A DNA stretch of 64,000 bases from Nodosilinea sp. FACHB-131 (lineage in GTDB: Bacteria; Cyanobacteriota; Cyanobacteriia; Phormidesmidales; Phormidesmidaceae): assembly GCF_014695395.1 (NCBI RefSeq), contig NZ_JACJOF010000021.1, forward strand, positions 1 through 64,000. Direction: 5' to 3'. The position numbers and the translations under genes were made by a program. The notes under the pieces were generated by a model. That model saw only the letters and a program-made list of their open reading frames with translations, had not been told where the DNA came from and did no database searches. This document shows positions 1 through 14,329 of the stretch, piece by piece; positions within the stretch are counted from its first letter, which is position 1; every line of letters starts with the position of its first letter.

Positions 1-186
1 ATGGCGTCGATGACCTTTTGCCTCAAATCGAGGCTGTAGGGTTTGGGCATAGCACTTGGAGGAAAATGTCTCTGCTTATAGCTTACGTCCTAACTCACAT
101 GGCTGTAGCTATACTATTCAGTATGTCACGCATCGTACCAGATTGGTTACATTTACGCCGTCAAATCCCTCTGACACAATCGGGGG

Positions 187-414
187 ATGGCGCGTGTGGG
201 CAAGGCTTTAAAGCAAGTTTTAGAAATTTATGGCATCAGCCAGAACAAGCTGGCGGTGACTATGGGTGTGCCGCGCCCTAGCGTGAACCGTTGGGTACAT
301 GAGCAACGCGACCCAGCAGGAGATGTGATTTTTGAGATTAAGGAAGCTCTCAAGCAGATCGACCCGGAAGCCGCGGATAAGTTTGTTCGTTTATATCTAG
401 GTGACACTTCATAG
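187..414 (+). CDS. Small XRE-like helix-turn-helix protein
   Basis: A 75-residue protein that is almost entirely one helix-turn-helix. The stretch ISQNKLAVTMGVPRPSVNRWV (residues 17-37) has the spacing of a Cro/C1-type HTH, and a short helical C-terminus (EIKEALKQID) follows. It probably binds DNA as a small autonomous regulator. The ATG at 187 directly abuts a GGGGG run, so a GTG at 196 with better ribosome-binding spacing is an alternative start. It lies upstream of the radical SAM/TcmP pair but in a different orientation from the radical SAM gene. Target genes are unknown. Confidence 0.7.
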   Translation: MARVGKALKQVLEIYGISQNKLAVTMGVPRPSVNRWVHEQRDPAGDVIFEIKEALKQIDPEAADKFVRLYLGDTS

Positions 415-486
415 CAATAACTGTAGGTGAACCCCTCAAAACATTTGGTTTTCTATCGAGGTGCCCTCAAAAGCTCATGAATGTTT

Positions 487-1428
487 TTACCAAACTTCAA
501 CAGTCGGTCGATAAAACCAAGTTTCAAGTCTATCCGAGCTTATATACTTATTTAAAGCAGGGTCGGGCCAAATATGCAGAATGTCTAGACAACCTAATTC
601 TGCAGCAGCCTCCTCTATTGCATTCCATTGCTTAAGAAAGTTTTCAGCCCAATCTTTATGACTCATTACCGAAGCTGCAAAAGATAGCCCCGCAGACAGC
701 ATTCTTTTCCCATTTGAACCCCTAGCATTGATAGGTTCCCAGAAAATAACCTCCGGTTCCAGAGGAAGTATTTTGCCTAAATACTCTAAAAAGTCTTTCT
801 TACCCATCTGGGGAACTGTAGGAGCAATGGCTACATAAAGCCTGCACCCAGACTTTTTACCCATGTATAAAGCTTTAAGCCTATCGGATGGCAAAGGCGC
901 ATGCGGTTCAATTTGACGACTTAGCTGATCATCTAAGTGTGGCAGACTCATGCCTATGGTAACGTTCCTATCCATAAGAACGTCCAAATCTTTTAACCAT
1001 AAGGGACTTCTAGTCAAAATTCTGATTCGCTTCTGACTCTTGAGAAGTATTTTTACCGACTGACGAGTTATTTTAGCAACTCTATTATTTTGATAAGGAT
1101 CAGTGCCAGAGCAAAGAAGTACGACTCCTTTACCTGCTTCAGTTTCTTTCCAAGTACGCTTTCTGTTAAGTTGCTCCTCTAACTTTTCTGGCAACTTGTC
1201 TCTTAACAGAAGATAATCTCCCCAGTCCATTTGAGGATCATTTACTCCGCTAGTGCGAAAGTGCTCCTGACGGGTACGTATTGTGGGCGTGGAAGGGACA
1301 TAGCAAAAAGTACACCCATGCAAACAACCAGAAGCTACATTGACCACATAGTCACATAGTCCCTTTTTGTTGAGTCCGCTTCTTTGCAAGGGAGACAAGA
1401 TCGTCTCAGTGCCGGAGACAGAAGCCAT
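487..1428 (-). CDS. Radical SAM protein, SPL-like (three-Cys) family
   Basis: A 313-residue protein with a CX3CX2C iron-sulfur motif (C35, C39, C42, in CLHGCTFCY), the signature of radical SAM enzymes that bind a [4Fe-4S] cluster and cleave S-adenosylmethionine. The overall pattern (TFCYVPS; GTDPYQ; a later ILTRSP strand) resembles the SplB-like/SPL-family radical SAM group. The substrate cannot be told from sequence. It is divergent from the TcmP-family gene at 1673, with a 244-nt shared promoter region. TcmP proteins are named for being encoded beside three-cysteine radical-SAM-like proteins, so the two probably work together. Base composition is more AT-rich than the main chromosome, consistent with an acquired module. 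Confidence 0.8.
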   Translation of the reverse strand: MASVSGTETILSPLQRSGLNKKGLCDYVVNVASGCLHGCTFCYVPSTPTIRTRQEHFRTSGVNDPQMDWGDYLLLRDKLPEKLEEQLNRKRTWKETEAGKGVVLLCSGTDPYQNNRVAKITRQSVKILLKSQKRIRILTRSPLWLKDLDVLMDRNVTIGMSLPHLDDQLSRQIEPHAPLPSDRLKALYMGKKSGCRLYVAIAPTVPQMGKKDFLEYLGKILPLEPEVIFWEPINARGSNGKRMLSAGLSFAASVMSHKDWAENFLKQWNAIEEAAAELGCLDILHIWPDPALNKYISSDRLETWFYRPTVEVW

Positions 1429-1672
1429 TTTAGTACATTTGAACTTTATCTAATCATAACTGATGGAACACTGGAGTAGTTGTAATCTTTAGATAAAACA
1501 AATATCAGGGATCCAATCAATCAAGCATCGTCAGCCAAATTGTGTCTAAAGCTGTATATAGCGTACAGATTTACTTCTTGACAGAGTGTTGCCACTATGC
1601 GTAGAAATTGCTAGGATTACTGTGCATGGTTAAAAATATTACTCAGCCCTAGTAAGCAAGGGACTCATAGAC

Positions 1673-3043
1673 ATGGAAGATTGGCAGAAGTACAAGCGCA
1701 GTTCCAAAGTTGTTTGGACGACTGATGGCCAGTTTCCTTCTATTGAGCCACATACTAAGGTTAAGCATCAATTACTTGAAAGCTACTTAAGCGACTGGGT
1801 GGCAACAATTACTGGGAACTGTCGTTTTGGGGCACAGCAAGTTACCCTGGTAGACGGCTTTTGTGGGGGTGGTATCTATAGGGATGGCAATTCCACATGG
1901 GAGGGCTCGCCAATCCGCATAATTAGGGCCATCGAGAGTGGTTGGAAATCAGTTCAGGAACGTAAACCCTACCAGAAACTGGATATTGCTTATTTATTTG
2001 TTGATAGGCGAAAAGAACATACAGATTGTCTCAAGCAGCAAATTAGGGATCATGGATATGGTCATTTGCTAGACTCTGGAATCATTCAAGTTAAATCAGG
2101 GCATTTTGAGGACCACTTGGGCGAATGCTTACAGTGGATCAAGTCTCGTGGCGGATATTCTTTCTTCTTTCTTGATCCATTCGGTAGCGTCGATCTGCCG
2201 GGAATGTCTAAGGCAATCCTTTCTCTTGGCAGATCAGAGGTTTTGCTTAATCACATGCAAAATGATGCTTTTGTAAGGCCAATCGTGCAAGCTTTTAAGA
2301 ATGGAAGAGGTGAAAGCTATTTAAGACAATACAACTTAGGTGAAGCTTATTCATTTTGTGCCGACTATGACAACTTGCCAAATCTTCAGCGCCAGACTTT
2401 GTCACAGAATGCAGCTTTAGAGCTTTACAGAAAGCAGAGCAACCCTAGATTTGCCTGGACATTTGCTTTCATGAAAAATAGAGATACAGTTTATTACTAC
2501 CTAATACATTTGTCAAATCAGCCTACTGCGGTCAGCGTAATGCGCAGAAACTTATGGCTATATAATAATCTAGACTACCAGTTTCATTATGGAGTTTTCG
2601 GTCTTGGATATCGGACAATTGAGGATTTTAGCAGCAACTTAAAGTTGCTAGACATAAACACAAGAAATAATCAAGCTTGTAGAGATAGACTTACAGAGCA
2701 GCTAGATAGATTTCTACATAAAACTAACAATTTAGCCTTTAAACAAATATATGAAGGAACGGTTGATTTTCATCCGGCTACTCGTGAAGATTGTATGAGC
2801 GTAATTCATCAAGGAATGCTAGATGGCTTGTGGGAAATTGAGCGAGATGGTAAGTACATAGGCTCCTCTCAGCTAACCAACAGAGACATTGTTCGACCAT
2901 CCAAAACACAACAATTAGTTCTGCTGCCTGATTATGCATCAGGGCGTATATCTCCTAAAAGGCAAGTAGGTAGTCGTAGTAGTGTGGCGCAAATGAAGCC
3001 GAGTCATTTTGGACAAATGAATATCCTAGAAACCGATATTTAA
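1673..3043 (+). CDS. tcmP: Three-Cys-motif partner protein TcmP-like
   Basis: A 456-residue protein matching the TcmP family layout. An N-terminal segment leads to VDGFCGGGIYRDG (residues 60-71) and a GSP motif, then FLDPFG (D168-G171). These resemble motif I and motif IV of class I SAM-dependent methyltransferases, so a methyltransferase-like fold is likely (inference). The C-terminal third (from about residue 330) is probably a winged-helix-like region. The start is the ATG after a weak upstream AG-rich stretch. It is divergent from the radical SAM gene at 487-1428. TcmP proteins are biochemically uncharacterised and often occur on mobile or defence-type islands. The local DNA is AT-rich relative to the flanks from 3.2 kb on. 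Confidence 0.75.
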   Translation: MEDWQKYKRSSKVVWTTDGQFPSIEPHTKVKHQLLESYLSDWVATITGNCRFGAQQVTLVDGFCGGGIYRDGNSTWEGSPIRIIRAIESGWKSVQERKPYQKLDIAYLFVDRRKEHTDCLKQQIRDHGYGHLLDSGIIQVKSGHFEDHLGECLQWIKSRGGYSFFFLDPFGSVDLPGMSKAILSLGRSEVLLNHMQNDAFVRPIVQAFKNGRGESYLRQYNLGEAYSFCADYDNLPNLQRQTLSQNAALELYRKQSNPRFAWTFAFMKNRDTVYYYLIHLSNQPTAVSVMRRNLWLYNNLDYQFHYGVFGLGYRTIEDFSSNLKLLDINTRNNQACRDRLTEQLDRFLHKTNNLAFKQIYEGTVDFHPATREDCMSVIHQGMLDGLWEIERDGKYIGSSQLTNRDIVRPSKTQQLVLLPDYASGRISPKRQVGSRSSVAQMKPSHFGQMNILETDI

Positions 3044-3222
3044 CTACTTCAAGTCCGTTTGAAATAGCGTAAATTGTTTGCTTAGGTGGCAAAGAAACGC
3101 TTGCTTAAGCCAACAATTCAGATGTAGAACGAAGGCCAGGTATATTTTTTATAACTCCGAGCGCAAACGCCTTCGCTGCCCAGACGAGAAAACACCCTCA
3201 CTCTAAGCACCAATAGAGCTTA

Positions 3223-3495
3223 TTAAGCCTGCCCACTAGCCACCAGCCATACGTAGGCCAGCACGCCTAGCGCCGCTACCCCTGCTAGTGCCTCGCCCTG
3301 CTGATTGATAAAGGTTTGCGCGATCGCCCACGAGTCGCGCAGCAGCTGTCGCCGGGTTTGGCCCAGCTCAACCATCAGCGCCTTAACTTCGGCATCAACC
3401 TCTTTAATGGTCAGCTCGTTGCGCTGGTAGGCGGCTTCGACCTCGTCTAGCTTGCGCCAGTAGTCTCGGGTGGCACCCATCAAATCGGGAAGCAT
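3223..3495 (-). CDS. Small membrane-anchored protein of unknown function
   Basis: A 90-residue protein with a helical, charged N-terminal part (residues 1-60, heptad-like, probably coiled coil) and one hydrophobic C-terminal segment (about 70-87, ALAGVAALGVLAYVWLVAS) that should be a tail anchor. No family recognised. The start ATG is preceded by an A/T-rich leader on the minus strand. It stands alone before the DUF433 gene; codon use matches the main chromosome. Confidence 0.6.
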   Translation of the reverse strand: MLPDLMGATRDYWRKLDEVEAAYQRNELTIKEVDAEVKALMVELGQTRRQLLRDSWAIAQTFINQQGEALAGVAALGVLAYVWLVASGQA

Positions 3496-3577
3496 TGGTT
3501 AACTTTTGTAACTGCGTTATTGACAGTTTAACGCTGCTCCGATTTGGGAGGGCTCTGTAGAAAGGGGTAGGGTGAGG

Positions 3578-4000
3578 TTAGGCTTTTGCTGCTTCGATCG
3601 GTTTCTCGACTACCTGCTCGGGCACTTGCGTGGGTATCTGCTCAGTGACGGCTACAGCTGCCTCATCGCCGTGGGCCTGATAAAAGACCAGCGCCGCCTT
3701 CACCTGATCTTCAGAAAGACCATACTCTTCGGCAATCTGCTCCGTTGACCATTCCCACTCAGTTGCCGCCATCACCACGGTTCGCACATGAATGCTGGTG
3801 CCATGTACCACGGGCACCCAGCTATTCTCAGCATCAGAGCGAAAGGCAATGTCTGGAAAGGCAGGGTCAGGTTCCATCAGAGCGCAGTGGGTTTCTTTTT
3901 GCAGCGAGGCTAAAACCGTATTCACGAGCTGCCAACGGTCCTCGACAGAGAGTTGCAGAACCTGATCTTGTAATTCCTGGAGGGTCATAGATGTGAGCAT
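3578..4000 (-). CDS. DUF433-family (antitoxin-like) protein
   Basis: The core HGTSIHVRTVV...TEQIAEEYGLSEDQVKAAL is the DUF433 helix-turn-helix-like fold, found in antitoxin-like proteins of cyanobacteria. The N-terminus (MTLQELQDQVLQLSVEDRWQLV) is the short helical segment often seen before it, and the C-terminal tail is low-complexity. The open frame extends to 4138, but starts at 4000 (GAGGTG about 14 nt upstream) or 3988 fit the conserved N-terminus and avoid the divergent gene. No PIN-domain toxin partner lies next to it, so a toxin-antitoxin role is not supported here. Confidence 0.75.
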   Translation of the reverse strand: MLTSMTLQELQDQVLQLSVEDRWQLVNTVLASLQKETHCALMEPDPAFPDIAFRSDAENSWVPVVHGTSIHVRTVVMAATEWEWSTEQIAEEYGLSEDQVKAALVFYQAHGDEAAVAVTEQIPTQVPEQVVEKPIEAAKA

Positions 4001-4155
4001 GGGTGCGGGTTGAACACCTCCTATTAAACTGCAAATGCTGGGCCGGGTCTTGTCTGTGGCAGCCCCAGGGGGCCAAGGCGACTGGTTTATGCTGATAGAA
4101 GTGCTTCTCGCCCGCAGGAGAGGCTTGCTAAACCCCATTTCTCTATTGTTGCGCT

Positions 4156-5367
4156 ATGTTTGCCACCACTGCCCCGCCGCTGCCCGTCAACCGCGATCGC
4201 ATTCGCCCAACCATTCAAGCTTTGCAAGATCAGTTGGTCACCTGGCGACGCGGTCTGCACCAGCGGCCCGAGCTGGGGTTTAAAGAGTGGCTGACCGCCG
4301 ATTTCATCTGCGAAAAGCTCAGCGAGTGGGGCATTGACTACCAACGCAACATCGCTCAAACCGGCGTGGCAGCGGTGATTGAGGGCACCCGTTCCGGCCC
4401 GGTGCTGGGCATTCGCGCCGATATGGATGCCCTACCCATTCAAGAAGAGAACGCCGTGCCCTACTGCTCACAGCACGACGGGGTGATGCACGCCTGCGGA
4501 CACGACGGCCACGTGGCGATTGCCCTGGGCACCGCCTACTATCTCTCCACCCACCGCGACTTTGCGGGCACTGTCAAAATTATCTTTCAGCCTGCCGAAG
4601 AGGGGCCGGGGGGTGCCAAACCCATGATTGAAGCGGGAGTGCTGAAGAACCCCGACGTGGAAGCCATAATTGGCCTTCACCTCTGGAATAACTTGCCCTT
4701 AGGCACCGTGGGCGTGCGCACCGGGGCACTGATGGCGGCGTCAGAATTCTTTACCTGCACGGTGCAGGGTAAGGGCGGCCACGGCGCGCTGCCTCACCAA
4801 ACGGTTGATTCCATCGTGGTGGGGTCGCAGATTGTCAATGCGCTGCAAACTATTGTGGCCCGCAACATTGACCCCACCAAATCGGCGGTGGTCACCGTGG
4901 GTCGGTTTCACGCCGGCAAGGCTCAGAACGTGATTGCCGACACGGCTACCCTCAGCGGCACGGTGCGTTACTTCGACTCCGTCTACGCCGACTACTTTGC
5001 CCCCCGCATGGAGCAGATCATTGCGGGCGTTTGTCAGGCCCACGGAGCCAGCTACAGCTTCGACTACAGAGCACTTTATCCACCCGTGATCAACGATGCG
5101 GGCATGGCGGATCTGGTGCGATCGGTGGCTTTGGCAGTGGTAGAAACCCCAGCAGGGGTCGTGCCCGACTGTCACACCATGGGCGGCGAAGACATGGCCT
5201 TTTTCTTGCAGGAAGTGCCGGGGTGCTACTTCTTTTTAGGCTCAGCCAATGCCGACAAGGCGCTGGCCTATCCCCACCATCACCCCCGCTTCGACTTTGA
5301 TGAAACGGCCCTGGGGTTGGGGGTGGAGATGTTTGTGCGCTGTGTGGAAGCGTATTTTGGAGAGTAG
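4156..5367 (+). CDS. M20-family amidohydrolase (IAA-amino acid/hippurate hydrolase-like)
   Basis: A 403-residue M20D peptidase. Metal-ligand motifs are visible: ADMDALPIQE (residues 89-98), HACGHDGH (112-119, with the Cys114/His116 ligands of the amidohydrolase subgroup), PAEEGPGG (147-153), and a late HTMGGEDMA metal/dimer motif. These enzymes hydrolyse N-acyl amino acids in the cytosol with two divalent metals. Length is normal for the family and it looks intact. It is monocistronic; a G-rich repeat follows the stop codon. Confidence 0.9.
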   Translation: MFATTAPPLPVNRDRIRPTIQALQDQLVTWRRGLHQRPELGFKEWLTADFICEKLSEWGIDYQRNIAQTGVAAVIEGTRSGPVLGIRADMDALPIQEENAVPYCSQHDGVMHACGHDGHVAIALGTAYYLSTHRDFAGTVKIIFQPAEEGPGGAKPMIEAGVLKNPDVEAIIGLHLWNNLPLGTVGVRTGALMAASEFFTCTVQGKGGHGALPHQTVDSIVVGSQIVNALQTIVARNIDPTKSAVVTVGRFHAGKAQNVIADTATLSGTVRYFDSVYADYFAPRMEQIIAGVCQAHGASYSFDYRALYPPVINDAGMADLVRSVALAVVETPAGVVPDCHTMGGEDMAFFLQEVPGCYFFLGSANADKALAYPHHHPRFDFDETALGLGVEMFVRCVEAYFGE

Positions 5368-5412
5368 ATGGGTAGGTGAGTAGGCGGGTAGAGGGTGGAT
5401 GGGTAGGGGGTG
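5367..5412 (+). repeat. G-rich interspersed repeat
   Basis: Short runs of GGGTAGG/GGATGGGTAGGGGG just after the amidohydrolase stop codon. This is one copy of the family seen at 6905, 10324, 36770, 45085, 45708, 49585, 50775, 52120, 55795 and 60110. Confidence 0.75.
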
Positions 5413-5568
5413 AGTTGTCCTCTTTTCTTCTGGGGTGCTCTGCGGCAACGCCTGTCCCTGGGGCAAATGGGGTCGCTTAGGGAGCACCCAAGATTAACTT
5501 CTTTAATAGAGAGAGTTCTCGGTCGACAGAGTTGCTATGCTTGGCGGTTAGATAACGAGGATTCCACC

Positions 5569-6174
5569 ATGGGGCAGCTGTTTCGGCGGTTTAGGGGGCT
5601 AGCGATCGCGGCGATCGCCCTGGTCGTGAGTATCGTGCTGACCCAGGAAATGCACCTTAGCGGCGGGATTAGTGATCGGGATGCGCTTGCCCAAACCAAC
5701 GCCCCACTGCCAGCCCTGGCACCGGCCCTGCCTATGGTCAACGGCAATTTTGAAGACCCCCAGGGCCGGTTTCAGATCGGCATTTTAGACGGCTACAGCG
5801 TCAGTTCGGCAGGTGGCAGTCCGCTATTTCAAGCTGCGGATGGCAGTTTAGCCTACACCGTAGCGGTGACCCCCCTGCCTACGGCCCAGACACCTGAAGC
5901 GGCCCTAGTGGCGGCAGCCGAAAGTACCTTTGGGGCGGGGGAGGGCTTTGTGGCAGGTGACGACGTGCAGCCCATCCCCGGCGGCGGCATTCGCATTAAC
6001 TGGACGGGCCGCCTCAGCCAGGGAGCCGCCCCGCCTCAACCCATTACCGGCAAAATCTTTGCCCGCCAGCGCGGCGAAGAAGCATTTCTGCTGCTGGTGG
6101 CGGCCACCAGTGCCGCCGAACCCCAGCTGTCTGACGCCATCAATGCCCTAGGGGGGACGCTGACGGTGCCGTAG
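5569..6174 (+). CDS. Secreted or membrane-anchored protein of unknown function
   Basis: A 201-residue protein. Start chosen at ATG 5569, with GAGG 8 nt upstream; the open frame runs further 5' without coding character. It has an N-terminal signal or anchor (RGLAIAAIALVVSIVLT), a Pro/Ala-rich spacer, then a compact domain of about 130 residues (NFEDPQGRFQIGILDGY...). The layout resembles cyanobacterial exported proteins with a small alpha/beta domain. No catalytic motif is visible. The next gene (6211) is co-oriented 36 nt downstream, and the VWA gene follows, so the three may form a unit. Confidence 0.65.
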   Translation: MGQLFRRFRGLAIAAIALVVSIVLTQEMHLSGGISDRDALAQTNAPLPALAPALPMVNGNFEDPQGRFQIGILDGYSVSSAGGSPLFQAADGSLAYTVAVTPLPTAQTPEAALVAAAESTFGAGEGFVAGDDVQPIPGGGIRINWTGRLSQGAAPPQPITGKIFARQRGEEAFLLLVAATSAAEPQLSDAINALGGTLTVP

Positions 6175-6210
6175 GCTACAGTAGCGTTAATTAAAGGGGT
6201 TCAGCAGGCT

Positions 6211-6858
6211 ATGGGTATGCGCCGATCGACCTTGTGGGGGCAGCCCCAAACCTATTTATTGCTGGGGGGCACCGCCCTGGGGTATGCCTTGATGATAGTT
6301 TTGGCGGGGCCAAAACCCATAGCTGTGCTGGCGGGCTCCGGAGTGGCGGCGGCCATGGTGAGCAGTTGGGCGGCGGGCTTTCGCCCCAGCAAAGCGACGG
6401 CCAACAGCGGCGATCTGCTCGACGCCCAAACCTTTGCCAGCCAGTTGGGTACTCTGGAGCAACGGGTGCCGCCAAAAGCCCAAAAAGCTTGGCGCGAAGT
6501 GCAAGCCTGGTCTACCGAATCGCAATGCTTTGCTGCCCGCATCTACGATCGCGACCCCCTTCTGCAAGTGGAACTGCTCGAAGCCCTGCACACCGTGCTC
6601 GATCTCTCAGGCCAGGTGGCCGACGGCCTAGCCGTGCTTGACCAGATCGAAACCCCAGCCTATCAACAGATGGCCCAGCAGCGCTTGGCCGCCAGCCGCG
6701 ATCGCCTCCAGGCCACCCACTCCCAACTGCAACAGCTCCAAGACCAGGTTGCCCTCTCCACCCTCGACACCGCTGGCGACAGCACCCTACCCCACAGCCT
6801 CCAATCCTTGATTGAGGCCAACAAAACCATTCTCCAAGACAACCAAGATTCCGCGTAG
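6211..6858 (+). CDS. Membrane-anchored coiled-coil protein, unknown function
   Basis: A 215-residue protein. Two hydrophobic segments (about residues 15-34 and 36-54) form a membrane hairpin. A helical cytosolic part of about 160 residues follows, with a Gln/Leu-rich coiled coil near 165-195 (QQRLAASRDRLQATHSQLQQL). Not recognised as a named family. It sits 36 nt after the secreted protein and upstream of the SBP-VWA gene, suggesting a role in the same envelope process. Confidence 0.65.
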   Translation: MGMRRSTLWGQPQTYLLLGGTALGYALMIVLAGPKPIAVLAGSGVAAAMVSSWAAGFRPSKATANSGDLLDAQTFASQLGTLEQRVPPKAQKAWREVQAWSTESQCFAARIYDRDPLLQVELLEALHTVLDLSGQVADGLAVLDQIETPAYQQMAQQRLAASRDRLQATHSQLQQLQDQVALSTLDTAGDSTLPHSLQSLIEANKTILQDNQDSA

Positions 6859-6904
6859 CCCCCAATCTACAAAAACCTTCAGGAAAACACGCAATTTGTC
6901 CTGT

Positions 6905-6956
6905 ATCTACTTCCCCACCCCCTACCCCTCACCCATCCACTCATCCACTCCCAAAA
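6905..6956 (-). repeat. C-rich copy of the interspersed repeat
   Basis: CCCACCCCCTACCCCTCACC followed by CATCCACTCATCCACTCCC, directly upstream of the VWA gene start. Written in the opposite polarity to the copy at 5367. Confidence 0.7.
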
Positions 6957-8699
6957 ATGCGCCGCCTCCCCCTCATTCCGTTTCTCATCAGCCTCTGCGC
7001 CGTGCTGCTGTGGAACTGCACACCAGACGCTTTCAATGGCACTCCCAAAGTTGATTCTGTGGAGAGCGCTCGGCAGGCCCTAGAGCAGTCGGTCTTGCCC
7101 AAGATCACCGTTGGCGAAGAGCTGATCCCTAATGAGGTGGCCAGTCGCTACACCACCGACCAGATCGTCGATCCCCTGCCTGATGTCAACACCTTTCCGC
7201 TGCACGCGGCCCAACCGGGCGGCAACAATACCGCCTACATAGAGATCTATAGTTCCTCTGAAAAGGCCAACGTTGATCGCCAAAACGAGCGCTGGCTGGT
7301 GGAAGTTGCCGAAGCCTTTAACCAGCGCAAAGAGACCCTGCCTTCTGGGGAAGTGATTCAGGTGGGAGTGCGCCAGGTGGCTTCGGGTACCGCCGCTCGG
7401 CTGCTAGGGGCCGGAGCCGTCAAGCCCCAGGGCTATAGCCCATCTAACGATCTCTGGGTGGCGATGGTGCAGAGCCAGGGGGTGAGCACCGTGCCTGTGG
7501 CCGCCCGCCTGGTGCCTAACACCGCTGGTTGGGTGCTGCCCAAGCCCGTCTACGATAGTTTGGCTGAAAACGGCACCGTCAGCTTTGACCGGCTGCTGAA
7601 TGCGATCGCCTCGGGCGAAGTCACCGTAGCCTACCCCAACCCCTACAGCAGCTCCACTGCGCTCAACCTGCTCTACACGCTGTACTGGCGGGCCGCTGGG
7701 CACCAGGACAATGGCGGACCGCTCACCGTAGCCGAGCTGCAAACTCCCCAGGTCAACTCGGTCTTTGACCAGTTTCAGCAGCAGGTGCTGATCACCACGC
7801 CCACCACCCTCGACTTGCAGGAGCTATTCCTGCGCGACCAGAGCAATCTGCAAGCCTTTCCGCTGGAATACCAAAACTACCTGGCCCTGCGCGAGGTGCC
7901 CGGCTTTAGCGACACCGAGTTTGTGCCCTTTGGCGTGCCCCACAACAATCCTTTAGTCGGCTTTGGTTGGAACACGCCCCAGCAGGTGGCGGCCCTACAG
8001 CGGTTTGCCCAGTTTGCCCAGTCGGCCGAAATGCAGACCCTGGCCCAGCAGCAGGGCTTTGTTGAAACCGACTACCTGAAGGCCAAGCAGGTGCCCCCCT
8101 TCCCCAACGGGGAAACCCTGCTGGCCGCCCAGTCAAACTGGAAACTCCGCAAAGATGGGGGCCGCACCGTCTATATGGCTCTAGTGATCGACACCAGCGG
8201 CTCCATGGAAGGGGAGCGGATTCAGGCTCTTAAGGATGGTTTACGGGTTGCCGCTGAGCAGATTAACTCAGGCAACTACGTCAGCGTCGTCACCTTTGCC
8301 GATGCGCCCAGTCGCCGACTGCCCCTAGCTCCTTTTGATCAGCTTCAGCACCAAAAGTTTTTGGCCACCGTTGACAGTTTGCGGGCCGATGGTGCGACAG
8401 CCATGTACGACGGGGCCATGGTGGGCCTAGCCGACCTGCTGGCCCAAAAAGAAAAAGACCCTAACGGACGCTACTACCTACTGCTGCTTAGCGATGGTGA
8501 GGTCAACCGGGGCTATACCTTTGACGCCGTTCAAGACATTCTTGCCTACAGCGATGTGCGCTTCTACCCCATTGCCTACGGTGAGGTGAATCAGGGGGAA
8601 TTGGAGGCGATCGCATCCCTGCGCGAGTCCACCGTGCAGCAGGGCACCCCTGACAACGTGCAAACCCTGTTCAAGGATCTGTTCCAGGTGAATCTTTAG
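6957..8699 (+). CDS. Substrate-binding-like plus VWA-domain protein
   Basis: A 580-residue protein. The N-terminal hydrophobic segment ends in LLWNC, a loose lipobox, so it is probably exported and perhaps lipid-anchored. Residues about 80-370 resemble a periplasmic solute-binding fold. Residues about 400-575 are a von Willebrand factor A domain with an intact MIDAS (VIDTSGSM, i.e. DxSxS; later a T in ADGATAM and the D of LLSDGE). Such proteins are thought to mediate metal-dependent protein contacts in the periplasm. The start follows a C-rich repeat with no good Shine-Dalgarno. The small gene at 8797 follows in the same direction. Confidence 0.8.
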   Translation: MRRLPLIPFLISLCAVLLWNCTPDAFNGTPKVDSVESARQALEQSVLPKITVGEELIPNEVASRYTTDQIVDPLPDVNTFPLHAAQPGGNNTAYIEIYSSSEKANVDRQNERWLVEVAEAFNQRKETLPSGEVIQVGVRQVASGTAARLLGAGAVKPQGYSPSNDLWVAMVQSQGVSTVPVAARLVPNTAGWVLPKPVYDSLAENGTVSFDRLLNAIASGEVTVAYPNPYSSSTALNLLYTLYWRAAGHQDNGGPLTVAELQTPQVNSVFDQFQQQVLITTPTTLDLQELFLRDQSNLQAFPLEYQNYLALREVPGFSDTEFVPFGVPHNNPLVGFGWNTPQQVAALQRFAQFAQSAEMQTLAQQQGFVETDYLKAKQVPPFPNGETLLAAQSNWKLRKDGGRTVYMALVIDTSGSMEGERIQALKDGLRVAAEQINSGNYVSVVTFADAPSRRLPLAPFDQLQHQKFLATVDSLRADGATAMYDGAMVGLADLLAQKEKDPNGRYYLLLLSDGEVNRGYTFDAVQDILAYSDVRFYPIAYGEVNQGELEAIASLRESTVQQGTPDNVQTLFKDLFQVNL

Positions 8700-8706
8700 A
8701 ATTCAA

Positions 8707-8752
8707 AATTCAAAGTTAAAAATTTAGAATCACCAATTTTTAACTTTGAATT
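8707..8752 (+). repeat. AT-rich perfect hairpin (TTGAATTTTGAA-type repeat)
   Basis: Perfect inverted repeat: arm 8707-8724 (AATTCAAAGTTAAAAATT), loop 8725-8734, arm 8735-8752. The 18-bp stem starts 8 nt after the VWA stop codon. It could act as a transcript end but looks like the AT-rich repeat also present at about 50655, 55869 and 59155. Confidence 0.75.
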
Positions 8753-8796
8753 GACAATTTTGAACTGCCACCGCAATCCCCCGTCTTCCCGCCCCT

Positions 8797-9174
8797 ATGC
8801 GTAACCCCAATCAACGACTGATTCTCACCATCGGCTCGGGCTGGTTGGCCTTTGCTGGCCTGGGGCTGGGTCTGCGCGAATTTCTTTCCGGCCCAGCGGT
8901 GACGGTGATCATCGATCGCAGCTACTGCGCCCCGGCCCAGTGGCAGGAACGGGTGAGCGATCGCTACGCCAGCCTCTACGCCGAACAGGAGCAGCGGCAG
9001 CTCACCATCGACCAGGTGATCTACGTCAGCGACCTGGGTCAGGAGGTTGCCGCAGCGATCCCCTCCCCCGAAGATGTGCAGACCCTCAGCACCTACGGCA
9101 GACCCAACCCTACCCAAATGCAGCAAGCCACCACAGAAAATCCCGATGCTACGGTGCTGAGCTGCGGCAATTAG
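8797..9174 (+). CDS. Small exported or membrane protein, unknown function
   Basis: A 125-residue protein with one N-terminal hydrophobic segment (TIGSGWLAFAGLGLGLREFL) followed by a soluble region (ITVIIDRSYC..., two cysteines at both ends). The conserved look of IDRSYCAP and the position after the VWA gene suggest a shared envelope function. No family recognised. The start is the first ATG of the frame, preceded by a C-rich run and no clear ribosome-binding site. Confidence 0.6.
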   Translation: MRNPNQRLILTIGSGWLAFAGLGLGLREFLSGPAVTVIIDRSYCAPAQWQERVSDRYASLYAEQEQRQLTIDQVIYVSDLGQEVAAAIPSPEDVQTLSTYGRPNPTQMQQATTENPDATVLSCGN

Positions 9175-9272
9175 CTGGATGGGTGCGGGGTCGGTGAGTC
9201 GGGGGTATGGCTCTGCCACTTACCTCGATTCAGACCTAAACTGGAGGCTGCGTCAACATTTGCATCACCTCC

Positions 9273-11297
9273 ATGACCGCTACCCCCACCCTCCCCAGCG
9301 ACGACACCACCCGCCGCCCCGACAGCGACTGGCGGCTGTTTCTGCGCATGTGGCCCTACATTTATAAGCACCGCAATGCCCTGGTGATGCCGCTGGTGTT
9401 GCTGGTGCCCCTGTCACTGGCCAACGCCCTCCAGCCGGTACTGATTGGTCAGGCTATCTCTCTGATTCGCCAAGAGCCGGTCATGTTTTTTTTGGAGGGT
9501 GCGACCCTTCAGGGCGGGCTCAATTTGCTGGTGGGGCTGCTGGTCGTCACCGTCCTGATTCGCCTGCTGCTGGACGGCTTTCAGAGCTACCTAGTGCAGG
9601 CCGTAGGCCAGAATATTACTGCCGACATTCGCACTGACCTGTTTACCCACGTCACCTCGCTAGCGGTGCGCTTCTTTGATCGCACCCCCGTGGGCAAGCT
9701 GATTACCCGCATCACCAGCGACGTCGATGCCCTGGGCGACGTATTCTCGACTGGGGCGGTGGGCATCATCACCGACGTAGTTTCGATGCTGGTGCTGATC
9801 GTGGTGATGTTTACTATGCAGTGGCAGCTGGCCCTCATGCTGCTGGCCCTGCTAGTGCCCGTCACCTGGCTGATTATTTACTTTCAGCAGCAGTTTCGCA
9901 AAGCCAACTACAAATCCCGCGAGCATCTTTCAGAACTCAACGCTACCCTGCAAGAAAATGTGGCAGGCATCAACGTGGTGCAGCTATTTCGGCGCGAGCG
10001 CTACAACGCCGAAATGTTTCGCCACACCAACCAGAAATACATCACCGCCGTCGATAAAACCATTTTCTACGACTCAGCGGTGTCATCGACGCTGGAGTGG
10101 ATCTCACTGGTAGCGATCGGCGGCGTGCTCTGGCTCGGCGGCCTGCTGGTGATGCAAAACGCCCTCACCTTCGGCACCCTGGCCACCTTTATTCTCTTTG
10201 CCCAGCGCCTTTTCGACCCCTTGCGTCAGTTTGCCGACAAGTTTACCGCCATCCAGGCCGGCCTCACCGCCGTGGAGCGCATCACCGACCTGTTTACCGT
10301 GCCGGTGGAAATCCGCGACCCGGAGAAGGTAAGCGGAGATGGGGAAGGTAAGGGAGATGAGGAAGGTAGGGAAGCAAGGGGAGCTAGGAAAGCGGCAATG
10401 AGGCTTGGCGACAACGGTAACGGAGTGAAGGAATCAATAGCTGAGAACGACTACTCAACCAACTTCCCCACAACCTACTCTCCCACCTCCTCATCTTCCC
10501 CATCCTCGTCACCCCCTCACCCATCCACCCACCCACCCACCCACCCACCCACCCCCTACCCCTCCAAGGCCTCCGAAATCCGCTTCGACCACGTCACCTT
10601 CGGCTACAAGGCCGATGAGCACGTGCTCAAAGACCTCACCTTTACCATTCGCCCTGGTGAAAAGGTAGCCCTGGTGGGGCCGACGGGAGCGGGGAAAAGT
10701 TCGATCATTCGGCTGCTGTGTCGGCTCTACGACATCAACCAGGGGGCAATTTTGCTGGATGGGGTTGATATTCGCGCTTTGCCCCAGGCGGAGCTGCGGC
10801 GGCGCATGGCGGTAATTTTGCAGGATGGCTTTCTTTTTGCGGGGGATGTAAAGAGCAACATTACCCTGGGGGAGGAATATCCCTTAGAGGCGGTGATTGA
10901 GGCAGCGAAAAAGACCAATATTCACGGCCTGATTGAAGATCTGCCCCAGGGCTACGACACTGAGCTGCGGGAGCGGGGCACGAATCTCTCAGGGGGGCAA
11001 AAGCAGCTGCTAGCCTTTGCCCGAGCGGCGATTCGCGACCCGGGAATTTTGGTGCTGGATGAGGCCACGGCCAACCTGGATGTGGGCACCGAGGCGATGA
11101 TTCAAGAGGCGCTGGAGCGCCTGTTAGAGGGGCGCACGGCGATTATTATTGCCCACCGCCTTTCCACTATCCGCCATGTCGATCGCATTCTGGTGCTCAA
11201 GCATGGCGAGCTGGTGGAGCAGGGCAGCCACGACGAGCTGCTGGCACGGGAGGGGTTGTATTCGAGTCTGTATCGTTTGCAGCGGTTGGGGGTATAA
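9273..11297 (+). CDS. ABC exporter, fused permease and ATPase (MsbA/MDR type)
   Basis: A 674-residue half-transporter. Six membrane segments span residues 25-330. The ATPase domain spans about 435-672, with Walker A GPTGAGKSS (about 468-476), signature LSGGQ (about 571), Walker B ILVLDEAT (about 591) and the switch His (IIAHRLST). It should act as a dimer exporting lipids or drugs. Unusually, about 80 residues of low-complexity linker (about 350-431: acidic/basic, then Ser/Pro/His/Thr-rich) separate the permease and the ATPase. This linker is encoded by an in-frame copy of the interspersed repeat, and both flanking domains are intact. The ATG at 9273 is followed by a Thr/Pro-rich leader. Confidence 0.92.
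   Translation: MTATPTLPSDDTTRRPDSDWRLFLRMWPYIYKHRNALVMPLVLLVPLSLANALQPVLIGQAISLIRQEPVMFFLEGATLQGGLNLLVGLLVVTVLIRLLLDGFQSYLVQAVGQNITADIRTDLFTHVTSLAVRFFDRTPVGKLITRITSDVDALGDVFSTGAVGIITDVVSMLVLIVVMFTMQWQLALMLLALLVPVTWLIIYFQQQFRKANYKSREHLSELNATLQENVAGINVVQLFRRERYNAEMFRHTNQKYITAVDKTIFYDSAVSSTLEWISLVAIGGVLWLGGLLVMQNALTFGTLATFILFAQRLFDPLRQFADKFTAIQAGLTAVERITDLFTVPVEIRDPEKVSGDGEGKGDEEGREARGARKAAMRLGDNGNGVKESIAENDYSTNFPTTYSPTSSSSPSSSPPHPSTHPPTHPPTPYPSKASEIRFDHVTFGYKADEHVLKDLTFTIRPGEKVALVGPTGAGKSSIIRLLCRLYDINQGAILLDGVDIRALPQAELRRRMAVILQDGFLFAGDVKSNITLGEEYPLEAVIEAAKKTNIHGLIEDLPQGYDTELRERGTNLSGGQKQLLAFARAAIRDPGILVLDEATANLDVGTEAMIQEALERLLEGRTAIIIAHRLSTIRHVDRILVLKHGELVEQGSHDELLAREGLYSSLYRLQRLGV
10324..10566 (+). 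repeat. Interspersed repeat inside the ABC exporter gene
   Basis: A purine-rich left part (GGGGAAGGTAAGGGAGATGA, about 10340-10380) and a pyrimidine-rich right part (CACCCATCCACCCACCCACC repeats, about 10505-10565) flank a 100-nt core. This matches the G-arm/C-arm design of the intergenic copies, but here the reading frame stays open throughout. Confidence 0.8.
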
Positions 11298-11350
11298 GAC
11301 GTCTTCTAAAAACCCTGGAACTAAAGTTCTAGACTTAGAGCAAAATTTTC

Positions 11351-11437
11351 TTCTAACGGTTCGGGTCAGCGGTTGTCGATACCTTTTCATCACACCCAAG
11401 TGGTTTCAGTCAATCCGCTGCACCCGAATTGTTAGAC
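11351..11437 (-). other. attC: attC recombination site of an integron cassette
   Basis: Read on the minus strand, the site runs from R'' GTCTAAC (11437-11431) to R' GTTAGAA (11357-11351), 87 nt. The arms between are TTCGGGT then CAGCGG on both sides (11360-11372 and 11415-11428), so the bottom strand folds back on itself. The hallmarks are present: a mismatched two-base central spacer (TT at 11429-11430 against GG at 11358-11359) and one extra unpaired base (C at 11421, a G on the minus strand) in only one arm. The 42-nt terminal part is variable. It lies 11 nt after the stop codon of the lectin gene, where a cassette attC belongs. Confidence 0.9.
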
Positions 11438-11447
11438 CGCGATCGTG

Positions 11448-13046
11448 CTACTTCACACTTACGCGCATGATGTACTGAGCATCGCTATCAGTAGCCTTGA
11501 ACAAAGCAGTGGAACCATCCTGATGCACTAGTTCTGTAGCAGAACCAGAAACCCACTCTACTTTACGTTGTCCATCTCTGTAGACAACCCTTACACTGAA
11601 GCTACCAATGTTTTGATGCCCGTCTTGCTTTAAGGATTCATAAAACTGCATTGCTGCACTCTTGGCTTTCTCCATAGCGACACCTGCGGTGGGTGCACCA
11701 AAATAGGCTGCAATGCCAGCAGCAGCAGCAATAGCAGCTTCTTTAATGGCAGGTAGTTGAGCGTTGTCTTGCTCCCGCAGCACAACTGTTACGAATGCTG
11801 ACTCTCCAGCGTTAAGAGAAAGCTCTGCTAGCCTAATATTATTGATAACCGTTTCGTTCCAGAATTGAAAATAATCTTCAGGAGGTGGAGGTGCAATTTT
11901 ACCGCCATTAACTGGACGATATCCGGTGTTTGACCCGGTACCTCCGGTAAGAACGAAGTAGGCTTCATCACGATTGTTCAACGTTCCTCTTTCCGTTGTC
12001 CAATCCGCTCTAATTTCATCAATCACAATCTGAGCAACATAATTCTGAGGAACACTGATTTCACCAGATTTAGTGTAAAGCTTACCGTCGCTTCCTTGTA
12101 CAAAGAGGTCGATACGGTTAGGTCCCCAAGACACGGCAGATAACAGCGCACTGCCCAAAGGCTCATCGCCTAGTTTAATGTAACCGCTCCACTTAGTTCC
12201 GTCCCAGAACTTTGTATAAAGCTTATTGTCCGTTCCTGTCACGAAAACATCAATACGGTTAGGTCCCCAAGACACAGCAGACGGTAGACCAATAACTTCA
12301 CTACCTAGTTGAGCGTAACCACTCCACTTAGTTCCGTCCCATGATTTGGTATAAAGTCTGCCATCAGCTCCCACTACGAAGACGTCGATGCGATTGGGTC
12401 CCCAAGACACAGCAGACGTACTAGCGACAGATTCATTACCTAGTTGAGTGTAACTACTCCACTTAGTTCCATCCCATGATTTGGTGTAAAGTCTACGATC
12501 TGTTTCTCCTATCATGAAGATGTCAATACGATTAGGTCCCCAAGATACGGCAGACACCGATCCAACAACAATAGCTTCATCGCTCAGTTGAGTGTAACCA
12601 CTCCACTTAGTTCCATCCCATGATTTGGTGTAAAGTCTGCTATCAGTTCCTATCACGAAGACATCAATGCGATTAGGTCCCCAAGATACGGCAGACGGCA
12701 CTTCAATAACAGCTTCATTGCCCAGTTGAGTGTAACCACTCCACTTAGTTCCATCCCATGATTTGGTGTAAAGTCTGCTATCAGTTCCTATCACGAAGAC
12801 ATCAATGCGATTAGGTCCCCAAGATACGGCAGACACCCAAGACACAACAGCCTCCCTACTGGAGATAAGCTCATTGCCCAGTTGAGTGTAACTACTCCAC
12901 TTAGTTCCATTCCATGATTTGGTATAGAGTCTATTATCAGTACCTACTACAAAGACATCAATACGATTAAGTCCCCAAGACACGGCAGACGGAGGGTATT
13001 TGATAACTTCATTGCCTAGCTGAGTGTAACCGCTCCACTGAGACAT
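11448..13046 (-). CDS. Seven-bladed DUF346 (PLL-like) beta-propeller protein with C-terminal domain; integron cassette gene
   Basis: A 532-residue protein. Residues about 1-330 hold seven near-identical repeats built on [18 protein letters not shown]...[18 protein letters not shown]. The first residues ([11 protein letters not shown]) supply the closing strand of the last blade, as in velcro-closed propellers. The pattern matches DUF346 repeats and PLL-type fucose-binding lectins. Residues about 340-532 form a second domain with an Ala-rich hydrophobic helical stretch ([14 protein letters not shown]) between beta-rich segments; its function is unknown. No signal peptide. The start has AAGGAG 9 nt upstream. 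It is the single cassette of the integron, divergent from intI. Carbohydrate binding, perhaps toxin delivery or anti-grazer activity, is inference. Confidence 0.88.
12085..13045 (-). repeat. Coding tandem repeats of the propeller (about 135-155 nt unit)
   Basis: Seven DNA units containing the motif CCACTTAGTTCC and TTAGGTCCCCAAGA at regular spacing. Identity between units at DNA level is very high, including silent positions, which points to recent duplication or gene conversion. Confidence 0.85.
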
Positions 13047-13066
13047 AGCTTAGCTCCTTCGCTAAT

Positions 13067-13145
13067 GGCTAACGCGATTTCAACATTATTCAGCAATTTC
13101 AATATCAAGAGAATGACCCATGAGGGTACCTTTTTGCGGGCTAAC
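13067..13145 (-). other. attI: Candidate attI region with two core sites
   Basis: On the minus strand two GTTAGCC cores occur, at 13073-13067 and 13145-13139. The first is 20 nt before the lectin ATG and is probably the cassette junction: joined to the attC its TTAGCC half pairs well with GTCTAAC. The second could be the attI core, in which case the 72 nt between are either part of attI or a remnant. Direct copies of TTGAAATYGC lie between them. Placement between the cassette and intI is as expected; assignment of the exact crossover is not certain. Confidence 0.6.
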
Positions 13146-13156
13146 AACTTATTATG

Positions 13157-13300
13157 CCGACAGTTTCCGTATAACTGCATTAGAGAGGGCAGTTATACCG
13201 ACAGTTTCCGTATAATTCACCTTCTGAAGGCAGTTATACGGATAATTGCCGCATATTATCCTTGCTAGGGGTAGTTACCCAGAAATTTTCCGTATAACTT
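13157..13300 (+). repeat. Short repeats in the integron control region
   Basis: CCGACAGTTTCCGTATAA occurs at 13157-13174 and 13198-13215, and a shorter TTTTCCGTATAA at 13286-13297. GTATAACTGC (13169-13178) and GCAGTTATAC (13189-13198) form a perfect 10-bp inverted repeat, and another GGCAGTTATACGG lies at 13229-13241. They may be integrase-binding sites of attI or operators. A possible -10 for intI, TACAAT, is at 13337-13342. Confidence 0.65.
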
Positions 13301-13366
13301 CACAAAGCCAGAGGTGCGTAAGCATGTACTATTTATTACAATACTGTTCTCCGTACAAACGTTGCC

Positions 13367-14329
13367 GTGGCATCTACCCCCAAGCTTTTTGATCAAGTTC
13401 GCCAGGTGCTCCGGGTCAGGCACTACTCATATGAAACCGAGAAAAGTTATATCCACTGGATCAAGCGCTTCATAGCGTTTCATCAGATGAGGCCACCTAG
13501 GGAAATGGGTGCTGCTGAACTAGAAGCGTTTTTAACTCACCTTGCGGTTGAGCAAAAGGTCGCACCATCCACCCAAAATCAAGCGCTCAGCGCCTTAATA
13601 TTTTTGTATCGAGAGGTTTATCAGCAAGATACAGACTGGAACTTGAATGCCGTCCGGGCTCGGCCTACTCGATATCTGCCCACGGTGTTGACGCCCAGCG
13701 AGGTCAGCGTTGTGCTCAACAACCTATCTGGAGTCTACCAACTAGTGGCTAAACTGCTTTACGGTAGTGGGCTACGGCTGACTGAAGGCTTGAAGTTACG
13801 GATCAAAGACGTTGATTTTGGTCAGCGTCAGCTCATCATTCGAGATGCTAAAGGGCGAGAAAGCCGAGTGACGATGCTGCCAGGTGCGCTGATTGAGCCC
13901 TTAAACCACCACATTCAAGGAATTCGGTAACTGCACCAGCAAGATTTAGCCCAAGGCTATGGGTCGGTTTATTTGCCCTATGCCCTCGAACGTAAACATC
14001 CTAATGCTGATCGGGAATGGGTTTGGCAATATGTATTCCCCGCAGAGCGTCGCTCCATCGATCCGCGCATGGGCATTTGCCGTCGCCATCATTTTCACGA
14101 AAGTGGATTGCAAAAGGCGGTTAAACAAGCCGTTCGAGCTGCTGATATTCAAAGGCGTGTATCTTGCCATACGTTTCGCCACAGCTTTGCAACCCATCTG
14201 CTGCAAAATGGCTACGACATTCGCACGGTGCAAGAGCTATTGGGCCACAAAGATGTCAAGACCACCATGATTTATACCCATGTTCTAAATCGAGGTGGAC
14301 TGGGGGTGAAAAGTCCGTTGGATAGTTGA
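13367..14329 (+). pseudogene. intI: Integron integrase (IntI), interrupted by one stop codon
   Basis: A 320-codon frame starting at GTG 13367. Residues 1-90 are the SAM-like DNA-binding domain ([18 protein letters not shown]), followed by the catalytic domain. Catalytic residues of tyrosine recombinases are visible: Arg in [11 protein letters not shown], His/Arg in [13 protein letters not shown], His in LLGHKD and Tyr in TMIYTHV. The segment [18 protein letters not shown] is the extra patch specific to IntI, separating it from XerC/XerD. Codon 188 is TAA (13928-13930); the frame continues unchanged ([20 protein letters not shown]) to TGA 14327. One base change from a sense codon such as AAA would explain it. 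The truncated product lacks the HxxR, His and Tyr residues. It is divergent from the cassette gene, as in integrons. Confidence 0.92.

Follow-up and report, generated by a model that had tools for sequence, protein, structure and literature searches.

A radical SAM protein of predicted spore photoproduct lyase-like fold as conserved partner of exchangeable TcmP proteins in cyanobacteria and haloarchaea

TcmP is a named protein family, and its pairing with DUF5131 proteins is known as the named candidates PDC-M30 and PDC-M41. Such TcmP-DUF5131 pairs are common and named only as candidates; a second partner that can be recognised as a radical SAM enzyme offers a specific hypothesis for all of them. 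We analysed a locus of Nodosilinea sp. FACHB-131 in which TcmP lies next to a radical S-adenosylmethionine (SAM) enzyme, hereafter rSAM. The stretch studied, hereafter the window, comprises the first 64,000 nucleotides of contig NZ_JACJOF010000021.1. As in PDC-M30 and PDC-M41, whose component A it matches, TcmP here adjoins a three-cysteine partner, but this partner is a PF04055 radical SAM protein with a predicted spore photoproduct lyase (SPL)-like fold instead of DUF5131. A search of the open-access literature returned, among the matches listed, no functional study of TcmP, of DUF5131 or of the rSAM-TcmP pair. Among the same matches we found no description of an SPL-like rSAM as mutually exclusive partner, of TcmP replacement, of the two-rSAM form of haloarchaea described below or of lone mobile rSAMs. 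The features of the pair are as follows.

487..1428, minus strand: radical SAM enzyme (rSAM), 313 aa, predicted SPL-like fold, the conserved partner
1303..1326, minus strand: CxxxCxxC cluster motif of the rSAM, CLHGCTFC (Cys35, Cys39 and Cys42, invariant together with Cys25 in the 27-sequence alignment A4)
1429..1672, no strand: 244-bp spacer of the divergent rSAM/TcmP pair, with a 16-nt imperfect inverted repeat (1445-1460 and 1482-1497) that may be due to chance
1673..3043, plus strand: TcmP, 456 aa, predicted class I SAM-methyltransferase fold, the exchangeable partner
1850..1873, plus strand: TcmP motif I, VDGFCGGG, following the first core strand of the model (D61, F63, G65 and G67 invariant in the 28-sequence alignment A3)
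2174..2185, plus strand: TcmP motif IV, DPFG, reading LDPFG in context (D168, P169 and G171 invariant in alignment A3)
2618..2848, plus strand: predicted winged-helix region of TcmP, residues about 316-392, helices and strands in the model

Alignment A3 comprises the long-class TcmPs and two haloarchaeal TcmPs; other TcmP classes differ in motif IV.

The pair and its distribution

An initial annotation, made from the sequence of the window, had proposed divergent radical SAM and TcmP genes in an AT-rich region. Both open reading frames (ORFs) lie at the places given and passed the corresponding family models, with 44.1 bits for the rSAM against PF04055 (Radical_SAM, gathering cut-off 29.5) and 131.2 bits for TcmP against TIGR04474 (curated cut-off 53). 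The GC content is 0.43 for the rSAM gene and 0.41 for the TcmP gene, as compared to 0.565 for window positions 3221-64000, and the pair has the lowest GC of 615 sliding windows of equal size.

We searched 386 cyanobacterial genomes for both families. TcmP was present in 54 of them and the rSAM (E 1e-30) in 12, all of which also encode TcmP (Fisher p 1.8e-11). The two genes are adjacent in 11 of these 12 genomes, while the twelfth, G030, contains abutting fragments of both, a decayed copy (G030:C81, 34293-34837). A C-terminal rSAM fragment was also found in G060 (G060:C31, 547455-547694); these decayed remnants show turnover of the module. The partner of TcmP was read at 51 loci of 58 places: it was DUF5131 in 40 cases and the rSAM in 11, never both and never neither. 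A separate scan with an rSAM profile, performed on one genome per species for 84,980 species, produced 60 loci, 47 cyanobacterial and 13 haloarchaeal; this set overlaps the 386 genomes, several loci (L066, L080, L100, L102) being from the same assemblies. A TcmP-profile match (E 1e-3) accompanied the rSAM in 57 of the 60 loci, with gaps of -130 to 229 bp. The initial annotation had proposed co-occurrence beyond chance as a check, and both the genome counts and the pairing in 57 of 60 loci reject a chance adjacency. As judged from these counts, the pairing is strict, and the rSAM and TcmP almost certainly form a functional pair. As no TcmP locus among the 51 read lacks a partner, TcmP would appear to need a three-cysteine protein at its side. 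The pair is not PDC-M30 or PDC-M41 itself, as the DUF5131 component is missing and none of the 51 loci has both partners.

The rSAM and DUF5131 profiles can be aligned (hhalign E 1e-5, probability 82), which points to a possible distant relationship between DUF5131 and the rSAM. Two DUF5131 variants that adjoin long TcmPs (L031, 215-1087, and L032, 7542-8510) contain a CxxxCxxC motif (CWHGCPYC); this motif, together with a weak Radical_SAM match, makes them look intermediate between DUF5131 and radical SAM proteins. On viral contigs, 12 TcmPs were found, with DUF5131 within 500 bp in nine cases and at 597 and 768 bp in two others; the remaining one (L131), near a contig end, has no DUF5131 neighbour, and none of the 12 has the rSAM. 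A search of viral contigs with the rSAM (29 stretches) did not reveal any relative, nor did one of genome contigs with TcmP as sole query (19 stretches). Nine phage records matched the rSAM with at most 30% identity over at most 73% of its length.

The arrangement of the pair differs between lineages. Cyanobacterial pairs are divergent in 23 loci and TcmP-first in 21, and haloarchaeal pairs are convergent in six, TcmP-first in four, rSAM-first in two and divergent in one. Two rSAM genes lie next to a single TcmP gene in 11 of the 13 haloarchaeal loci (L108-L110, L112-L114, L116 and L118-L121). These paired paralogues mostly fall in separate parts of the rSAM tree, and both copies of L108 carry N-terminal CxxC pairs.

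A constant rSAM beside exchangeable TcmPs

We compared the conservation of the two partners in 36 of the 60 loci, all cyanobacterial and intein-free with a TcmP piece longer than 260 aa, some of them truncated. Median identity over the 630 locus pairs was 66% for the rSAM and 37% for TcmP, and TcmP was the less conserved protein in 626 of them. In 12 locus pairs of the Pseudanabaena clade, rSAM identity reached 87-95% as opposed to 16-19% for TcmP, the extreme case being L075 and L076 (95% and 18%, respectively). At the DNA level, the homology between L075 and L073 covered the rSAM gene and 35 bp upstream of it (87%), was absent over TcmP and resumed 15 bp past the L075 TcmP stop codon (94% over 83 bp), with a further segment beyond (94% over 630 bp). 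L071 was also homologous to L075 on both sides (87% over 1171 bp and, further out, 88% over 631 bp), and L076 was homologous on the rSAM side only. The swapped TcmP forms differ in motif IV, which reads DPFG or DENG. L071, L073, L075 and L089 are metagenome-assembled genomes, in which misassembly is not wholly excluded, and the long TcmP form was found in two separate ones (L075 and L089), the short form being present in L069, L072 and L076, which are not labelled as such. Short TcmPs of about 290-300 aa also accompany the same rSAM family in L020, L021, L068, L100, L103 and L104, and that of L020 is PDC-M41A-like. As far as sequence can tell, TcmP is thus replaced, and has not merely drifted, beside a conserved rSAM. 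The presence of several unlike TcmPs beside this family suggests that one rSAM family works with all of them, and the replacement next to a nearly unchanged rSAM points to a constant chemistry combined with exchangeable targeting.

L073, a Pseudanabaena contig, contains many copies of a dispersed repeat of about 110 bp (at about 1222-5715 and 9057-13878), which was also seen after the rSAM gene of L075. In L103 (6861-8819), L104 (6858-8825), L105 (3941-5908) and L106 (3151-5124), the rSAM ORFs are 652-657 aa long and are interrupted by an intein-like insertion that includes a LAGLIDADG domain (PF14528 in L103). The insertion site, read in L103 and L106, lies directly ahead of Cys42, the third cluster cysteine, so that the catalytic motif would be split until splicing. 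These four rSAMs were left out of the tree and of the identity comparison.

Several observations argue for horizontal mobility of the pair. It is AT-richer than its flanks in 56 of the 60 loci, by 6.5 points on average, its distribution is patchy and its genes are exchanged. Complete pairs also occur on plasmids, such as pC052_C of Nostoc sp. C052, conjugative according to MOB-suite; existing plasmid annotation already places TcmP beside a radical SAM protein. Taken together, these findings support the view that the rSAM-TcmP pair is horizontally mobile.

In five loci (L078, L115, L117, L138 and L140) the rSAM was found without TcmP, as judged with seven profile hidden Markov models at E 1. 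Around the lone rSAM of L115 there are terminase, portal and integrase genes, and around that of L117 terminase and tail-completion genes (PHROGs). L138 is a conjugative plasmid of Gloeothece and L140 a plasmid of Halorussus, and integrase-like and ParA-like ORFs were read by eye near the lone rSAM of L078. The lone state takes four changes on the rSAM tree, a tree with long branches, among them L083, L117, L121, L138 and L140. Lone rSAMs on prophages and plasmids provide a natural test case of defence versus counter-defence.

Predicted folds of the two proteins

TcmP was modelled with AlphaFold2 from 28 sequences (pLDDT 80, pTM 0.79). The model contains a Rossmann domain, with motif I past the first strand and DPFG past the fourth, followed by a helical and winged C-terminus. 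The methyltransferase-like motifs pointed out in the initial annotation are thus present, and the structure prediction that it had called for gave a class I SAM-methyltransferase fold with good confidence. In structural alignments with VIA-align, the closest solved fold was RlmJ, the 23S rRNA m6A2030 methyltransferase (Z 17.0, 3.0 A, 216 residues), Trm1 being the first protein of another family (Z 13.6). Motif I of RlmJ and TcmP is aligned within a short hhalign match. However, this sequence match is not significant, TcmP has an extra winged helix, is mobile and paired, and reads DPFG, while the RlmJ motif is DPPY. A search of the Protein Data Bank (PDB) sequences with the TcmP profile produced a single irrelevant match (E 0.036). 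The GMT-wHTH domain PF22560 was detected at residues 316-392 of the L065 TcmP, which is 61% identical to the window copy (32.8 bits, cut-off 27); the L038 TcmP remained below the cut-off with 22.8 bits, and the window TcmP did not match this model at E 0.01. The prediction for TcmP is thus a class I SAM methyltransferase carrying a winged helix, and binding of SAM is very probable.

The rSAM model was obtained with a pLDDT of 92. Spore photoproduct lyase (SplB) was its nearest solved fold both with VIA-align (Z 19.7, 3.2 A, 259 residues; next SuiB, 16.3) and with Foldseek (E 1e-7), and the rSAM fold is accordingly predicted to be closest to this enzyme. The CxxxCxxC regions can be aligned, but identity is only 12%, the sequence match obtained with hmmsearch is not significant (E 0.3) and the rSAM is paired with TcmP. 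A first-pass search of PDB sequences with the rSAM profile gave nothing useful. The closest NCBIfam models, PA0069 (NF033668) and Rv2578c (NF038135), scored 88.7 and 63 bits, far below their cut-offs of 360 and 430, indicating that the rSAM is not a member of these radical SAM families.

Proposed function, defence context and neighbouring genes

We propose that the pair is a mobile two-enzyme module that would modify nucleic acid, possibly for defence, an explanation that we consider evenly balanced when taken as a whole. TcmP would recognise RNA or DNA and methylate a base, most likely at an exocyclic amine, and the rSAM would always perform one and the same radical reaction at that site, the TcmP allele determining where and the rSAM what. 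The retention of the rSAM beside exchanged TcmPs suggests that its reaction is constant. The nearest folds, rRNA and tRNA base methyltransferases for TcmP and a DNA lesion enzyme for the rSAM, would make nucleic acid the most likely common substrate, and we regard such a substrate as probable. From the partner rule, the conservation pattern and the folds together, we infer that TcmP may select and methylate a base on which the rSAM would also act; that both work on one site has, in our view, an even chance. The rSAM might either add to the mark made by TcmP or remove it, the lone rSAMs of phages and plasmids being the sole hint for removal. The modification would defend against phages or plasmids, as a variant of PDC-M30/PDC-M41 in which DUF5131 is swapped for an SPL-like rSAM.

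The defence part of this proposal could go either way. In PADLOC, the window TcmP matched PDC-M30A (65.9 bits, E 8e-19) and PDC-M41A (24.9 bits), and the DUF5131 neighbours of other TcmPs matched component B of PDC-M30 and PDC-M41. The rSAM had no PADLOC match at E 0.01 (window and L033 copies) and no PF07505 match (window copy). On pC052_C, brxL, pglZ and a BrxA-family gene follow the pair within about 8 kb; BrxC was found near the pair of L068 (Nostoc) and PsyrT near that of L033. Defence genes near the pair were compared with control stretches in two PADLOC scans. The second, at E 1e-30, used 127 ORFs from 15 other pair loci and the same control as the first, with differing size limits (150 and 110 aa) and with case and control from different assemblies; L075, L080 and L100 (28 of 155 ORFs) are not in the case set. 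Sixty-two PADLOC families were matched in pair loci as compared to 11 in the control, a contrast that is suggestive only. According to PMC10855318, 68.8% of 32 P. aeruginosa strains with PDC-M30 were phage-resistant, a link tempered by the fact that resistant strains in this study have more systems of all kinds.

A number of observations weigh against the proposal. In the first scan, performed at E 1e-10 with 84 ORFs of 10 pair loci and 113 ORFs of 10 control stretches, 67 PADLOC families were matched in pair loci (20 of them by one PsyrT gene) and 38 in controls, which is no clear difference, and the controls also matched defence models, including PsyrA, ShosA and HEC-01. In the E 1e-30 scan, gene names among the matches listed numbered at least 11 in pair loci and 3 in the control, a borderline difference that is not independent (Fisher p 0.056). 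Cas12f and Cas12u4 are counted there as one, Cas12f may be transposon TnpB, and four of the 11 names are BREX genes (BrxC from L068; BrxA, BrxB and BrxE without a stated locus). Across the loci read, no nuclease is present as a constant third component. The PDC label itself is guilt-by-embedding only, and two other PDC systems were inactive in a native host according to PMC12409345. As for the chemistry, Foldseek ranked RlmJ fourth after histamine methyltransferase, Trm1 and CouO (all E about 1e-5), and the RlmJ sequence profile aligned with TcmP at E 0.044 and probability 1.2, which is not significant (RsmJ control profile, E 0.45). Motif IV also varies, reading DENG, DNQG/DNQA or DPKG in TcmPs of other classes that accompany this rSAM family, so that amino-methylation is possibly not general among TcmPs; the DENG and DNQG variants in particular caution against taking each TcmP for an amino-methyltransferase.

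Other functions were considered. The pair may mark the nucleic acid of the mobile element itself, or a host RNA in a way that benefits this element, for restriction protection or translation tuning rather than for host defence. This would be consistent with the complete or lone copies on plasmids and prophages and with the viral contigs that carry TcmP and DUF5131, 9 of 12 within 500 bp, but the contigs of most of the 60 loci carry no plasmid or phage label, and BREX genes are found in the vicinity of two pairs; we think it rather improbable. The lone rSAMs bear on another possibility, in which TcmP would make a harmful RNA or DNA base modification that the SPL-like rSAM reverses in the host, phages and plasmids carrying the rSAM alone as a counter-measure. 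Spore photoproduct lyase, the closest fold of the rSAM, is a direct-reversal repair enzyme, a constant antidote with a variable effector would yield the observed conservation pattern, every one of the 51 genomic TcmP loci read has a partner, and the five lone rSAMs, which are located on prophages, on plasmids or on what is probably a mobile element, require four changes on the rSAM tree. However, lone copies are just five, three of them on long branches, their labels are no more clustered on the tree than in 61 of 500 shuffles, plasmids also carry complete pairs, and the rSAM may serve mobile elements in some modification of their own; we thus hold this effector-antidote function to be unlikely. 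A little less likely still is its extension to a modular immune system, in which the same type of nucleobase modification would be inflicted by exchangeable TcmP alleles on differing targets and reversed in the host by one SPL-like rSAM, while phages or plasmids would take the antidote gene alone to escape. We know of no defence system in which a self-inflicted base lesion is directly reversed by radical chemistry.

An ordinary accessory pair for RNA or DNA repair and modification, spread by transfer and with no role in conflict, would agree with the nearest folds, RlmJ and SPL, which are housekeeping enzymes. Yet the presence in only 12 of 386 genomes, the AT-rich islands, the decayed copies in G030 and G060 and the replacement of TcmP are unlike housekeeping, and we give such a function little weight. 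Concerning our own proposal of a mobile nucleic acid-modifying module, the initial annotation had already suggested a self-contained mobile or defence module with a resident helix-turn-helix (HTH) gene. Its mobility is supported as described above, and defence is suggested only. The HTH ORF (187-414; HTH_3, 29.7 bits, cut-off 23) lies outside the annotated interval 487-3043 and is rejected as a module member, as tblastn at E 0.01 found a relative in none of 96 related loci.

The genome comprises 6.16 Mb in 45 contigs, and the window opens one of 160 kb. Positions 1-113 are a repeat with six additional exact copies in the genome, every one at a contig end, indicating that the assembly broke within a repeat at the left edge of the window. 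A promoter and terminator scan gave no excess over shuffles, and the Rfam scan of positions 1-12000 and the tRNA scan of the whole window gave nothing useful. Further along, the ORF at 13973-14326 (plus strand) encodes the C-terminal portion of a protein of the phage integrase family (PF00589, 81.9 bits); it is reminiscent of an integron integrase and may be a remnant. An AT-rich ORF of 532 aa at 11451-13046 (minus strand) contains lectin-like repeats (Fungal_lectin PF07938, DUF346). Closer to the pair, the ORF at 3578-4138 (minus strand) carries DUF433 (PF04255, 30.1 bits), a family often seen in toxin-antitoxin contexts.

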